Assembly: GCF_946415235.1 (NCBI RefSeq)
Contig: NZ_CAMKRR010000004.1
Coordinates: 48,781-112,780, forward strand
Length of the DNA stretch: 64,000 nucleotides
Reading direction: 5' to 3'
Source: an uncultured Ruminococcus sp.
GTDB taxonomy: Bacteria; Bacillota; Clostridia; Oscillospirales; Ruminococcaceae
In this document: positions 8,577-14,396 of the stretch, piece after piece
Layout: every line of letters begins with the position of its first letter
Numbering within the stretch: the first letter of the stretch is position 1
Notes under the pieces: generated by a model
Seen by the model: the letters and a program-made list of their open reading frames with translations, nothing else
Told to the model about the DNA's origin: nothing
Databases searched by the model: none
Position numbers and translations under genes: made by a program

Positions 8577-9737
8577 TTAAGGGGAGAATATTCTCCCGAA
8601 AAATTCTTTTATCCTTGTGAACAAACCTTTTTCAGCCTTTTTCGTCTTTACGGTCACTGCCTGTACGTCCTCGGCGGCATAAAGCGGAACCGTGTCCACC
8701 TCTCGTCCGAAATAGCTTATCCTCAGCCTTGCGGCTTCCTCTCCCGCTTTTACGGGAGCATACAGAAAAGGCGGTCTGAGCACAGTATATGTAAAATCAT
8801 CGGCATTTCCTGCCACTGTTGACACAATATACGTACTGTTTTCGGGTACGAGCCGCAGCTTTTCCGAGGTACCGCCCGCTACATCAGCCGTGATATCCTT
8901 TGGCAGCGTGAGCTCAAGCTGCCTTACCGCATCAAAGCCGTACTCATACAGCGCGATATGATCGTTCCAGTCGTTCCGGTCGTTGAGAGTAACGCATATC
9001 AGGTTTTTGCCGTCACGCTGACAGGCAGACACGAGACAGCGCCCCGCCTCATCGGTAAAGCCTGTCTTTACGCCGTAAACTCCGTCATACATTGAAAGCA
9101 GCTTATTTGTATTGTAAAGCCACCTTTCATAGGGCGGAGCGCCGAAGCTTACCTTTATGCTTTCCTTTGAGCATATCTCACGGAAAAGCTCGTTTTTCAG
9201 AGCCTCACGGGCAAGCAGAGCCATATCTGCCGCCGACGAACCGTGTCCCTCTCCTTCAAGTCCCGAGGGAGTAACGAAAAATGTCTTTGAAAGACCCATT
9301 TTTCTTGCACGTTCATTCATAAGCTCCGCAAAGGCTTCGATACTTCCCGATATCCTTACAGCTGCCGCATTTGCCGCGTCATTGCCCGAGGGCAGCAGCA
9401 TTCCGCAGCACAGCGCGTATTTTGTGACTATATCCCCCTCGCGCAGTCCCATTGACGAGCCTTCTGCCTTTATCGCCTCACTGTCCACAACGAACTCGTC
9501 ATAGAGCCCGCCGCTTTCAAGGCAAAGCAGGGTCGTCATTATCTTGGTAGTACTTGCCATGGGGAGCTTCTCCGCGGCATTGAGCCCGTAGATAACCTCG
9601 CCCGTATCGGCAGATATGAGAACAGCCGCTTTGGCATATATCTCAGGGGCTTCCGCGCCGAAGGACACAGTACCGCACAGACAAAAGGCTGTGAGGAGTA
9701 CTGCCGCAAATACAGATACAAGTCTTTTCACAGGCAC
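8577..9737 (-). CDS. dacF: D-alanyl-D-alanine carboxypeptidase (DacF/PBP5-like)
   Basis: Signal peptide; MASTTKIMTTLL (SxxK), SGNDAAN (SxN), VKTGFTDEAG (KTG). Confidence 0.88.
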   Translation of the reverse strand: MPVKRLVSVFAAVLLTAFCLCGTVSFGAEAPEIYAKAAVLISADTGEVIYGLNAAEKLPMASTTKIMTTLLCLESGGLYDEFVVDSEAIKAEGSSMGLREGDIVTKYALCCGMLLPSGNDAANAAAVRISGSIEAFAELMNERARKMGLSKTFFVTPSGLEGEGHGSSAADMALLAREALKNELFREICSKESIKVSFGAPPYERWLYNTNKLLSMYDGVYGVKTGFTDEAGRCLVSACQRDGKNLICVTLNDRNDWNDHIALYEYGFDAVRQLELTLPKDITADVAGGTSEKLRLVPENSTYIVSTVAGNADDFTYTVLRPPFLYAPVKAGEEAARLRISYFGREVDTVPLYAAEDVQAVTVKTKKAEKGLFTRIKEFFGRIFSP

Positions 9738-9790: not shown

Positions 9791-10225
9791 TCAGTTTATT
9801 GAAACGGAGCCGTCTGTGATATCAGAGGTCTTTGCGTCCGTATTTCCGCCCTTTTTCTTGTTGATAAAGCCGCTTACCTTGTCGATGATGGCAGGCATTT
9901 TCTCAATGGCGTTGCTGATAGGATCGTTGGAGCCTTCCATATTTACCATTTTTGCAGAGCCGTCGGGAGCTATTACAAGGAAGCCCTCGGGCTTTATGGA
10001 AACTCCTGCGCCAGCTCCGCCGCCGAAGAGCTCCTTATCGTACTTTGAAGGAAGATCGGAACCACCCGATGCAAAGCCGTAGCTTACCTTTGAAACAGGG
10101 ATTATGGTAGTTCCGTCGGGAAGCTTTATGGGCTCACCGATTATGGAGTTGACATCTGCCATTTCCTTGATCTTTTCAATGGAAATACCCAGGAGATCGC
10201 TTACAGGTGTATTGTTTGCACTCAT
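9791..10225 (-). CDS. ytfJ: GerW family sporulation protein (YtfJ)
   Basis: GEPIKLPDGTTIIPVSKVSYGFASGGSD...GGGAGAGVSIKPEGFLVI. Confidence 0.88.
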   Translation of the reverse strand: MSANNTPVSDLLGISIEKIKEMADVNSIIGEPIKLPDGTTIIPVSKVSYGFASGGSDLPSKYDKELFGGGAGAGVSIKPEGFLVIAPDGSAKMVNMEGSNDPISNAIEKMPAIIDKVSGFINKKKGGNTDAKTSDITDGSVSIN

Positions 10226-10236
10226 AATTATATACC

Positions 10237-11178
10237 TCACTTCTGCCTTGCGGCGGATTTTTTCATTTTGCGTTTCATTCTGAATTTTCTCAGCTTTTCA
10301 GGCAGAAATGTCCTGAAAAGATATGTTATCAGGAACCATGCTCCTGCAATAACCACCGTTCCGAGGCGGAAATACAGCTTGCCCGCTGCATCCCAGCGCC
10401 CCTTTGATACTCCGAACTGCGGACGTACATCTATGGTTTTCAGCCTTACCGTAAAAAGCTCACTGAAAAAAGCGATGCCGTTGTATACAAGCGCGGAATA
10501 CTTTCCGTATTTCAGCGCACAGTCATATGCGTCCTCATCTGCAATAACGAAGTCAATATAAAGGTCCTTGAGCCTGAAGCCCCTGAATATTTTCAGCATG
10601 GGACGCTGAGCGCTCTCCCATATGCCCACAAGGAACTCTATTTTGTCGCTCAGAGACTTCTTTTCATCATCTTCACTGCCTTCGCTTTTTTCATCTGCGA
10701 AGATATCGTCGTCAGAATCGTCCTTTTTCTTCTTTTTATCCTTTTTTCCGCCTTTATCTTCATCAGAGCTGTCAGATAAAGGCTCGTAAGCAGCACTTTC
10801 ATCCGTTTCGGAAGAAGTTTCCGCTGCAATATCCGCTGACTGCATATCAGTCTCGGGATCGTTCACGGGAATGCTGTCAAGCTCCTGCTCCCATTCATAC
10901 TTTTCCCGTTCCTTTTTCTTTTTTGACTTCTTTTCCCTGACGGGCTTCGGCTTTTTGAGCTTCCTTGGCTTATCCTTTTTGGCGGCTTTTCGTTTTTTCC
11001 ACCAATTATAAAGTCCTCCGCCCTCCGAGTCCATGATATCAAGCAGCCACAGCTTTACCCTATAACTGAATTTCCCGTCGATATAGCTGAACTCTCCCCC
11101 CACAGGGATCATCAGCACGAGAAGAATTATGCCCAAAACGGCAAGAAGTATATACAGCAGAATTTTCAGTACTATCAT
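10237..11178 (-). CDS. DUF2953 domain-containing protein
   Basis: TM, Lys/Asp/Glu-rich linker, conserved C-terminal domain; Met at 11178 avoids overlap with scpB. Confidence 0.65.
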   Translation of the reverse strand: MIVLKILLYILLAVLGIILLVLMIPVGGEFSYIDGKFSYRVKLWLLDIMDSEGGGLYNWWKKRKAAKKDKPRKLKKPKPVREKKSKKKKEREKYEWEQELDSIPVNDPETDMQSADIAAETSSETDESAAYEPLSDSSDEDKGGKKDKKKKKDDSDDDIFADEKSEGSEDDEKKSLSDKIEFLVGIWESAQRPMLKIFRGFRLKDLYIDFVIADEDAYDCALKYGKYSALVYNGIAFFSELFTVRLKTIDVRPQFGVSKGRWDAAGKLYFRLGTVVIAGAWFLITYLFRTFLPEKLRKFRMKRKMKKSAARQK

Positions 11179-11206
11179 TCCTGCCGCTCCTTTCTGTTGA
11201 TCGTCT

Positions 11207-11782
11207 TTACTGCTGAGACTCGGCAAGCTCCCTGTCCACGAATTCCTCCTCTGTTTCGAGGACAAGATCCCCCTGTCCCGGAAGAGGCGGCAGCTCCGCA
11301 GTGGAGCTGAGACCGAAGCTTCTCAGGAACACGGAGGTGGTCCTGTAGACTATGGGCTTTCCCGGAACATCAAGACGTCCCGCTTCCTCAACGAGCCCCT
11401 TTTCAACAAGGTTGTTTATTACCGACGAGCTGTCGATACCTCTTACATTTTCCACAAAGCCCTTTGATACGGGCTGATTGTAGGCGATTATGGTAAGAGC
11501 CTCCATAGCAGCATTTGAAAGAGGAGTTGTCCTTTTTGTCTCGAGAGCAGCTCTTATCTGCTCCGCATATTCCTCACGGGTACACATCTGATAGCTGCTG
11601 TCCAGCTTTTTGATGCAGATACCGCTCCCGCAGTCCTCATAGCGCTCGTTGAGCAGCCTTATCATGGAAGGCAGCGTTCCCGCATCAACTCCGCTCGCCT
11701 CCGAAAGGCGGTATATCTCTATAGGCTCACCGCTTGCAAAGAGTATAGCCTCTATTGCTCCGAGCCTGCCTTTGATCTCCAA
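11207..11782 (-). CDS. scpB: Segregation and condensation protein B
   Basis: AIEAILFASGEPI...LSNAAMEALTIIAYNQPVSKGFVENVRGIDSSSVINNLVEKGLVEEAGR. Confidence 0.93.
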   Translation of the reverse strand: MEIKGRLGAIEAILFASGEPIEIYRLSEASGVDAGTLPSMIRLLNERYEDCGSGICIKKLDSSYQMCTREEYAEQIRAALETKRTTPLSNAAMEALTIIAYNQPVSKGFVENVRGIDSSSVINNLVEKGLVEEAGRLDVPGKPIVYRTTSVFLRSFGLSSTAELPPLPGQGDLVLETEEEFVDRELAESQQ

Positions 11783-12507
11783 GATTTCTTCACTCCGTTC
11801 TTTCTTCCCTTGAAGAAGATCATCATGTTATCATCGCTTATGGTTATCCTGCCCGACCTTGTGAGTTCAAGCACCGCAAGGAATGTAGCGACTCTCGCCG
11901 AGCGGTCGGTAACTCCTTCATAGAGCTTATCCATATACACCTCGCCTGTTGTGTACAGCTCACGGAGCACATGGACTACCTTTGACATTACCGAAACGAT
12001 ACGCCGCTTCACAACAGAGTTGATCTTGTTCTCAACGTGGAGCTTTGCGTGCTCGGATTTAATATTTTTCAGTGATATGGCGCTGTAAGCGATCGCCAGT
12101 CTTTCAGGCTCATGCACAAGTGTATAGGTCATGTCAGCCTTAATCTTCATTGGTTCGCGGACGAAAATGCTTCCGCCCACATATGCGTCCGCAAGCTGCT
12201 TTGCGGCGATCTTGCAGAGAGAGTACTCAATGAGAGCTCCCTCCAGCTCGCGCTTCATCTGTTCAGCCTCCTCGGGCTGAGGCAGCAGTGACGCTGTTTT
12301 GATATATATGAGCCTTGCAGCCATTTCAAGGAATTCGCCTGCAAGCTCCAGATTCTGCTCGTGAGCCTGGTCTATATAGAGCAGATACTGCTCCAGCAGC
12401 TTTGATATCTCGATATCGCAGATATTGAGCTTATGCTTTGCGATAAGGCTCAGCAGAAGATCGAGAGGTCCCTCAAAGACCTCAAGCTTGAATGATATGC
12501 TTTCCAT
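11752..12507 (-). CDS. scpA: Segregation and condensation protein A
   Basis: FKLEVFEGPLDLLLSLIAKHKLNICDIEISKLLEQYLLYI; overlaps scpB. Confidence 0.93.
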   Translation of the reverse strand: MESISFKLEVFEGPLDLLLSLIAKHKLNICDIEISKLLEQYLLYIDQAHEQNLELAGEFLEMAARLIYIKTASLLPQPEEAEQMKRELEGALIEYSLCKIAAKQLADAYVGGSIFVREPMKIKADMTYTLVHEPERLAIAYSAISLKNIKSEHAKLHVENKINSVVKRRIVSVMSKVVHVLRELYTTGEVYMDKLYEGVTDRSARVATFLAVLELTRSGRITISDDNMMIFFKGRKNGVKKSWRSKAGSEQ

Positions 12508-12540: not shown

Positions 12541-13257
12541 CTAAGCCATGTATATGAGCTCTGTAAGTATTTTTAATGTGCTCTCCGCCACGTCGGGGAC
12601 GAAGAATATAAGATTATCCAGCAGCAGTCTCCACAGATAAGCCAGAAATCCCAGTATGGAGAATTCTCCTCCCGTAAGGGAGTCCATGAAGAATACAGCT
12701 AAAAGTATATATCTCGACCACATGGTGATCTTCTGATAGTTTGTGAAATACCAGCGTCTGAACTTAGGCGGTGAGAACTGGTAGAATATATTGAAGCCGT
12801 CCAGAGGCGGTATCGGCAGAAGGGCTATGATACCAAAAAACAGGCTTGCTCTTGCCGCCCTTACAAGCACGAAATACAAGGAAGCAAGTACGAAGGACGA
12901 CGGGGCGAAACCGAGCAGCAGTCCGCCTATATTCCGCAGGACGACATACATAAGCAGGTACGTCACAGGTGAAGCCAAAGATATAAGCGTAACATCGCGC
13001 TTCATTTTCTTCAGCCTCGATACGTCAATATTTATCTCCTTGCTCCAGCCGAAGCCGAAAGCGAATATAAGTATGATGCCGAAAAGGTCTGTATGCTTTC
13101 TGAAGTCAAGCGTGAGCCTGCCTTCCCTTTCGCCTGTGCTGTCGCCAAGCTTTTTGGCTGCAAGCACTCTTATATAGCAGGCAAGAGGCATAACAGCCGT
13201 AAGAATGATGCCTCTGCTGAGAAGCGTGAGAAAAACTCTGTAGATCTTGAATTCCAT
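12541..13257 (-). CDS. M50/S2P-family homologue lacking HExxH (predicted pseudoprotease)
   Basis: Aligns by eye with the adjacent M50 protein (FGFGWSKEINIDVSRLK; LLPIPPLDGFNIFYQFSPPKFRRW), but ACYIRV replaces HESAHG. Confidence 0.75.
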   Translation of the reverse strand: MEFKIYRVFLTLLSRGIILTAVMPLACYIRVLAAKKLGDSTGEREGRLTLDFRKHTDLFGIILIFAFGFGWSKEINIDVSRLKKMKRDVTLISLASPVTYLLMYVVLRNIGGLLLGFAPSSFVLASLYFVLVRAARASLFFGIIALLPIPPLDGFNIFYQFSPPKFRRWYFTNYQKITMWSRYILLAVFFMDSLTGGEFSILGFLAYLWRLLLDNLIFFVPDVAESTLKILTELIYMA

Positions 13258-13274
13258 TATACTATCCCCGCGCC

Positions 13275-13988
13275 TTATCCTTTATAGCCAAAAGTATCGG
13301 GTATCCACATAACAGCCTTCATCATTACCTCGTAAAGATAGTATGACGCTCTGGAAAGCGGAGAATACTCGGAGGGTATCACATTCATGAGAATGAGCAG
13401 AGCAAAGAATACCATGTTGATCTCTCTCTGGTGCTGATATACCCAGCGGTCGAACTTCTCGGGCGTGAACGCGCGGAGGATGTTGAAGCCGTCAAGAGGC
13501 GGCACAGGTATAAGGTTGAAAAGAGCAAGTCCGATATTTACTATGACAAGGAACTGCAGAAGCAGCATTACACAGGACATAGTATTGAACTGATTTGCGA
13601 AAAGTCTGAGATAAGCTTCCTGTCCGCTTTTGAAGCACAGCATTATTGCCAGTGCAAGTGCAGCCGCAAAGGAGGCAAGAAGATTTGAAACAGGTCCTGC
13701 CAGAGCTGTCAGAGCATAGCCCGCACGGTAATTTCTGAACCTCATTGGATTGACTTCAACAGGCTTTGCCCAGCCGAAGCCGCCTATAATCATGAGCATT
13801 GATCCCAGCGGATCAAGGTGCACAAAAGGATTGAGGGATATCCTTCCCTGCCTCTGCGCGGTATCATCGCCGAGCCATTTGGCCATAAGTCCGTGAGCCG
13901 ATTCATGTATAGGCAAAACGAGCAGCAGCGTCGCTATCCTCGAAAAATACTTTAATACTGTCTGAATATCCAGATTGCCGCCTAACAT
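13275..13988 (-). CDS. Site-2 protease family (M50) metalloprotease
   Basis: LPIHESAHGLMAKWLGDDTA (HExxH) and NLIPVPPLDGFNI (LDG). Confidence 0.9.
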   Translation of the reverse strand: MLGGNLDIQTVLKYFSRIATLLLVLPIHESAHGLMAKWLGDDTAQRQGRISLNPFVHLDPLGSMLMIIGGFGWAKPVEVNPMRFRNYRAGYALTALAGPVSNLLASFAAALALAIMLCFKSGQEAYLRLFANQFNTMSCVMLLLQFLVIVNIGLALFNLIPVPPLDGFNILRAFTPEKFDRWVYQHQREINMVFFALLILMNVIPSEYSPLSRASYYLYEVMMKAVMWIPDTFGYKG

Positions 13989-14210
13989 CTTTATTTCCTT
14001 TCTTTGATGGAGTATCATCACTTTTTAATACATATAGATATACAATATATATTATACTATAAATCGCTATATATTTCAAGTAAAAAAGTATTTTTATGCC
14101 TCAAAAAAAATTTTTTTAGTTTTTTTTCAAAAAACACTTGCTTTTTTTCTGAATATGTGTTAGAATAATCATGTTGTATTTTTACAGGTTAGTTAAGGAG
14201 GTGCAACCTA

Positions 14211-14396
14211 ATGGCAAAATGTGATATCTGCGGAAAGGGCGTAACCTTTGGTATCAAGGTTTCTCACTCACACAGACGTTCCAACAGAACATGGAAGCCT
14301 AACGTAAAGCGTGTTAAGGCTATCGTCAAGGGTACTCCTTGTCATATCTACGCTTGCTCAAGATGCCTGCGTTCAGGCAAGGTTGAAAGAGCTTGA
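14211..14396 (+). CDS. rpmB: 50S ribosomal protein L28
   Basis: MAKCDICGKGVTFGIKVSHSHRRSNRTWKPNVKRVK; AAGGAGGTG upstream. Confidence 0.96.
   Translation: MAKCDICGKGVTFGIKVSHSHRRSNRTWKPNVKRVKAIVKGTPCHIYACSRCLRSGKVERA

Follow-up and report, generated by a model that had tools for sequence, protein, structure and literature searches.

Organization of the S2P locus

The window, that is, the whole 64,000-nucleotide stretch of Ruminococcus DNA that was analyzed, carries two intact open reading frames of the site-2 protease (S2P) family in tandem on its minus strand (Table 1). The order of genes on this strand is active-type S2P, 17 bp, a paralogue that we call the dead copy, 33 bp, scpA and scpB. 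An upstream GTG start would lengthen the active copy to position 14021. A pseudouridine synthase gene is also found downstream, on the same strand as the carboxypeptidase gene.

Table 1. Genes and motif codons at the S2P locus of the window.
Feature	Position	Strand	Remarks
Dead S2P paralogue, 238 aa	12541..13257	-	ACYIR at HExxH; LDG (D153) and GFGW loop kept, as is the predicted S2P fold
Codons of ACYIRV (residues 26-31)	13165..13182	-	Opposite HESAHG; R30 at second zinc histidine (sequence and alignment)
Codon of D153	12799..12801	-	LDG aspartate, retained third metal ligand (reading frame of dead copy)
Active-type S2P, 237 aa	13275..13988	-	HESAH, GPVSN, PVPPLDGFN
scpA	11752..12507	-	Directly 3' of dead copy, gap 33 bp
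scpB	11207..11782	-	Overlaps end of scpA
Protein without Pfam match	10237..11265	-	
YtfJ-family sporulation protein	9791..10240	-	PF09579
D-Ala-D-Ala carboxypeptidase	8577..9737	-	PF00768
rpmB (ribosomal protein L28)	14211..14396	+	Divergent; upstream edge of locus in most genomes

The two proteins are 29% identical over 232 positions (BLASTP, E 3e-29), and the alignment covers the whole of the dead copy. ACYIRV lies exactly opposite HESAHG, with no gaps across the motif. The ungapped alignment, the intact reading frames and the gene order thus agree with the earlier note, which had described a protein with HESAH and LDG next to one with ACYIRV in place of HESAHG, both upstream of scpA and scpB. 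The active copy matched Pfam Peptidase_M50 (PF02163) with 47.7 bits, and the dead copy with 26.4 bits (E 5e-6), just below the family cut-off of 27.2 bits; a dead copy from another genome, in which it is the only S2P of the locus (L244), reached 43.1 bits. By sequence homology, the dead copy therefore belongs to the site-2 protease (Peptidase M50) family. It retains the LDG aspartate of an active site-2 protease and lacks the HExxH of the first core helix. Family homology, loss of the catalytic residues and evidence of selection (see below) together describe an S2P pseudoprotease.

Distribution in Ruminococcus

We sampled 100 genomes of the genus and found an S2P match in 92 of them, which were sorted by what they carry at a conserved site between rpmB and scpA. 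In 47 genomes this site holds a single active S2P. An active and a dead copy stood in tandem in 19 genomes (20 loci, since one metagenome-assembled genome (MAG) with 7% contamination has two). In the other 26, a dead S2P with a TNSAKG-like sequence where HExxHG is expected stood alone in front of scpA. The dead gene is thus not a chance occurrence, as 46 homologous dead genes are found in 45 Ruminococcus genomes, including that of the window. In tandems the dead copy was always second, and 4-34 bp separated it from the active copy in most loci. The median gap from S2P to scpA was 0-7 bp across the three locus classes and 1 bp in dead-only species, and co-translation with scpA is therefore likely in the latter.

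In 21 of the 26 dead-only loci, the dead gene has rpmB as its visible neighbour on the side away from scpA, and these loci therefore lack the active copy. A search of all 26 genomes with the active protein found no second copy of this S2P type; besides the locus copy, it returned little more than weak matches to a protein of about 360 aa of the RseP/RasP kind. Thirteen of the 26 genomes are at least 90% complete. No credible remnants of a lost S2P copy were found in single-copy loci. Sporulation capacity was rejected as an explanation of dead versus active copies, as SpoIVA was present in 98 of the 100 genomes whatever their class.

Carriers of the dead lineage are chiefly R. flavefaciens and rumen Ruminococcus MAGs. 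Tandems occur in strains 007c, ND2009, YAD2003, SAb67 and ATCC 19208, and dead-only loci in R. flavefaciens XPD3002 and in MC2020, whose record bears the title Anaerotruncus. The dead lineage was seen only in Ruminococcus-type loci: among the scpA-linked loci inspected outside the genus, all carried HExxH and none a dead S2P. A MAG titled Alistipes has a Ruminococcus-type dead S2P locus and is likely a mislabelled record (L248). Two further loci were unusual. One genome of the active class (L149, genome G284) has a second S2P of the same type, with HEYAHG, that does not adjoin scpA. In another (L154, genome G004, C3:944000-960000), roughly three copies of the S2P-scpA-scpB segment, 99.97-100% identical, lie within 16 kb, owing to either a recent tandem duplication or an assembly artefact.

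Motif state of the dead copies

HExxH was lost at the aligned position in all 46 dead copies. Both zinc histidines were gone, and the second was replaced by lysine or arginine in every case. The LDG aspartate was kept in 44 of the 46, the window's copy included; the tandem dead copies L068 and L069 have LGG instead, with the lysine at the second histidine position still present. The catalytic glutamate and a conserved second histidine were absent. An extra histidine was found at GPxxH in 20 of the 26 dead singles, replaced by leucine in five dead singles and by tyrosine in all tandem dead copies. The earlier note had recognized that alternative metal ligands could restore the site and overturn its reading; we looked for them in the alignment and found no conserved set. 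An HEMKH string in L071 lies off the aligned motif position and is not conserved in other dead copies, and we therefore did not regard it as a rebuilt site.

The dead copies have conserved residues of their own, such as DFRxHxD and WSKE in the tandem type. In tandem-type dead copies the substrate loop is altered, with KEINID for KPVEV, so they and the active enzyme may have different clients. The GFGWSKP loop is retained in dead singles. The dead copy of one tandem genome (L096), with VNCVKG, is intermediate between the single and tandem types.

Predicted structure

AlphaFold2 models, run with alignments from related loci, reached pLDDT values of 92.9 (dead protein of the window) and 93.6 (R. 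flavefaciens XPD3002, dead single). When both models were compared with known structures by VIA-align, the best nine matches were all S2P structures (RseP, RASP, mjS2P and SpoIVFB). Z scores of the S2P matches were 7.6-11.7 for the window model, with RseP at the top (11.7), and the first unrelated matches scored 6.2 and 8.2 for the two models. Sequence homology is the main evidence of kinship, because helical proteins in general can yield Z scores this high. VIA-align was clearer than Foldseek, which returned only a weak match to mjS2P (E 0.058). The dead copy is thus predicted to keep the S2P membrane fold.

Lineage history and selection

In trees built without the motif columns, dead and active copies within the genus separated with 100% SH-aLRT support, and the hypothesis that the dead copies in tandems arose from the active genes next to them was rejected (AU p 0.003). 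Dead copies also formed one clade in a tree with distant outgroups (SH-aLRT 99); rooting of the dead lineage with these outgroups gave an AU p of 0.52, and the firm split is the one within the genus. The closest relatives of the dead lineage are the scpA-linked S2Ps of Ruminococcus. A single origin is supported by the lysine or arginine shared by all 46 copies, a derived state in columns that were excluded from the tree. The dead copies would accordingly constitute one old lineage in Ruminococcus; a single origin further presupposes that the loss cannot be undone.

Pairwise dN/dS values (NG86, only pairs with dS<1) were 0.06-0.26 for tandem dead copies, 0.09-0.19 for dead singles and 0.05-0.24 for active copies. 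Dead copies are under purifying selection, with dN/dS of 0.05-0.26, similar to active copies. These results support the earlier note in that an S2P paralogue, catalytically dead by sequence, is kept under selection in Ruminococcus. Forty-six homologues and dN/dS of 0.05-0.26 at dS<1 also rule out a decaying unique pseudogene, the other outcome that could have overturned it.

Dead-only and active-only species were interleaved in the ScpA+ScpB tree and in the tree of RpoB, a separate marker. The clearest neighbours are a dead-only genome (G205) and an active-only genome (G233), with RpoB branches of 0.0025 and 0.002. Either gene exchange by recombination or differential loss after an ancestor that had the tandem can explain this pattern. 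A single clade of the active copies of tandem species was rejected (AU p 3e-5), whereas the dead copies of tandems form one lineage, and thus the active partner was swapped while the dead copy stayed. In close strain pairs, dS was about 1.3 for the active copy versus 0.3-0.4 for the dead copy and 0.2 for scpA. The close R. flavefaciens strains of loci L074-L077 (dS about 1.3 for the active copy, 0.2-0.4 for the dead copy and scpA) are a case in which exchange seems to have affected only the active gene. Identity between dead and active copies was no higher within genomes (0.256) than between them (0.251).

Discussion

The most probable interpretation, to which we assign a probability of about 0.6, is that the protein at 12541-13257 is a pseudoprotease of S2P (M50) fold, selected for a non-proteolytic job that would most likely consist in binding membrane clients uncut. 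In 26 sampled species the dead gene stands alone instead of a working enzyme, which makes a role apart from proteolysis the probable reason for its retention. Loss of both zinc histidines and of the catalytic glutamate would remove the metal and the general base while the predicted fold stays, and the dead copies presumably lack proteolytic activity. In SpoIVFB, pro-sigmaK is bound through beta-augmentation at the re-entrant loop, and the dead E44Q mutant also forms the complex (PMC11486902). Binding of a client without cleavage is thus the most economical reading, since loop and fold are kept and SpoIVFB E44Q still binds its substrate. A transmembrane or membrane-associated client may still be captured along the re-entrant loop (GFGW[AS]K) and the core, and then be held or sequestered rather than cut. 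Judging from the aligned positions, the lysine or arginine that takes the place of the second zinc histidine is a probable partner of the LDG aspartate, and the pair would brace the helices as zinc does in the enzyme. Such a Lys/Arg-Asp pair in place of zinc is not obligatory, as L068 and L069 have glycine for the aspartate. In tandem species the dead and the active copy may be competitors for a shared client, and in the 26 dead-only species the dead copy would work without any active copy of the same type. Linkage to scpAB as a pointer to the client is suggestive only.

The earlier note had suggested a regulatory or substrate-binding partner, analogous to iRhoms. In this reading the dead copy would control the adjoining active S2P as a heterodimer or decoy, in the manner of iRhoms or BofA. 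The 19 tandem genomes, with their fixed gene order and short spacing, are consistent with such a partnership, and membrane proteins that occupy the cleft of SpoIVFB do block that enzyme (PMC9042235). However, the 26 genomes with a dead copy only and the exchange of active partners speak against it as a general rule: the active copies of tandems are not one clade while the dead copies are, the dS of close strain pairs sets the active copy apart from its two neighbours, and dead and active copies of one genome are no more alike than those of different genomes. We consider this reading unlikely overall, although a partner role may still apply in tandem species. It is also rather doubtful that the dead copy anchors ScpA/ScpB (SMC) at the membrane or serves them as a scaffold, instead of binding the former protease client, with proteolysis dispensable even in the active form. 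Tight linkage to scpA and the interleaving of dead-only and active-only species would fit an anchor, but the linkage may reflect shared translation only, and dead singles keep a substrate-loop sequence that an anchor would not need.

Residual enzyme activity, through a rebuilt metal site or other chemistry, is very improbable. The widely kept LDG aspartate and the extra histidine of most dead singles could hint at a new site, but both zinc histidines are gone in every dead copy, no conserved second histidine or catalytic glutamate is left, and the extra histidine gives way to leucine in five dead singles and to tyrosine in all tandem dead copies. Decay of a duplicate on its way to loss has next to no probability: the branch to the tandem dead clade is long (2.6 changes per site), but reading frames persist at 46 loci, dN/dS is well below 1 and the dead copies have invariant residues of their own. 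Returning to client binding by a pseudoprotease, the position of S2P before scpA may have been selected without need for proteolysis, and even the active form might serve mainly as a client-holder or ScpAB scaffold. We offer this extension, which stems from the mutual substitution of dead and active lineages across close species, as speculation.

Several known systems resemble the dead lineage in part. EGY3 of plant chloroplasts is likewise a conserved S2P-family membrane protein called inactive, with active relatives alongside, and was described as the sole pseudoenzyme of the S2P family, restricted to plants (PMC9355673). The Ruminococcus lineage differs in being bacterial, adjoining scpAB and being able to replace the active homologue alone. 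Membership in the EGY3 family is unlikely, as we found the dead lineage only in Ruminococcus-type loci and it is closest to the scpA-linked S2Ps of the genus. With those active S2Ps (Peptidase_M50, PF02163) it has locus, fold, re-entrant loop and LDG in common, but they carry HExxH and GPxSN where the dead lineage has lysine or arginine for the second histidine and histidine, tyrosine or leucine for that asparagine. SpoIVFB E44Q is comparable in that it is dead yet keeps hold of its substrate (PMC11486902), but it is engineered and changed in one residue, whereas the Ruminococcus copies are a natural lineage. The iRhoms are dead intramembrane protease paralogues kept by selection (PMC3149277); they are comparable only in the way they work, being eukaryotic, of an unrelated fold and family, and acting on clients of active rhomboids. 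BofA and SpoIVFA are also membrane proteins that control an S2P, but they plug its cleft and are not S2P homologues (PMC9042235).

A 2023 review of bacterial S2Ps ascribes HExxH and LDG to all S2Ps (PMC10202637), and we found no report of a bacterial S2P pseudoprotease in the open-access papers searched. As far as those papers show, a dead S2P lineage in bacteria that takes the place of the active gene appears to be new. With a natural, selected, putatively dead bacterial S2P that replaces the active gene, substrate binding could be studied apart from cleavage. A natural experiment is offered by species pairs such as the dead-only MC2020 and the active-only G233, which is close to it. Outside the genus, Clostridium thermobutyricum and a relative (L283:3935-4582 and L286:3935-4588) have an S2P with HSYAK for HExxH and LDG kept; its gene follows one of the LCP type and has no scpA nearby. 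Judging from the different locus and genus, this dead S2P is probably independent of the Ruminococcus lineage, and the histidine-to-lysine change at the second histidine is common to the two cases.
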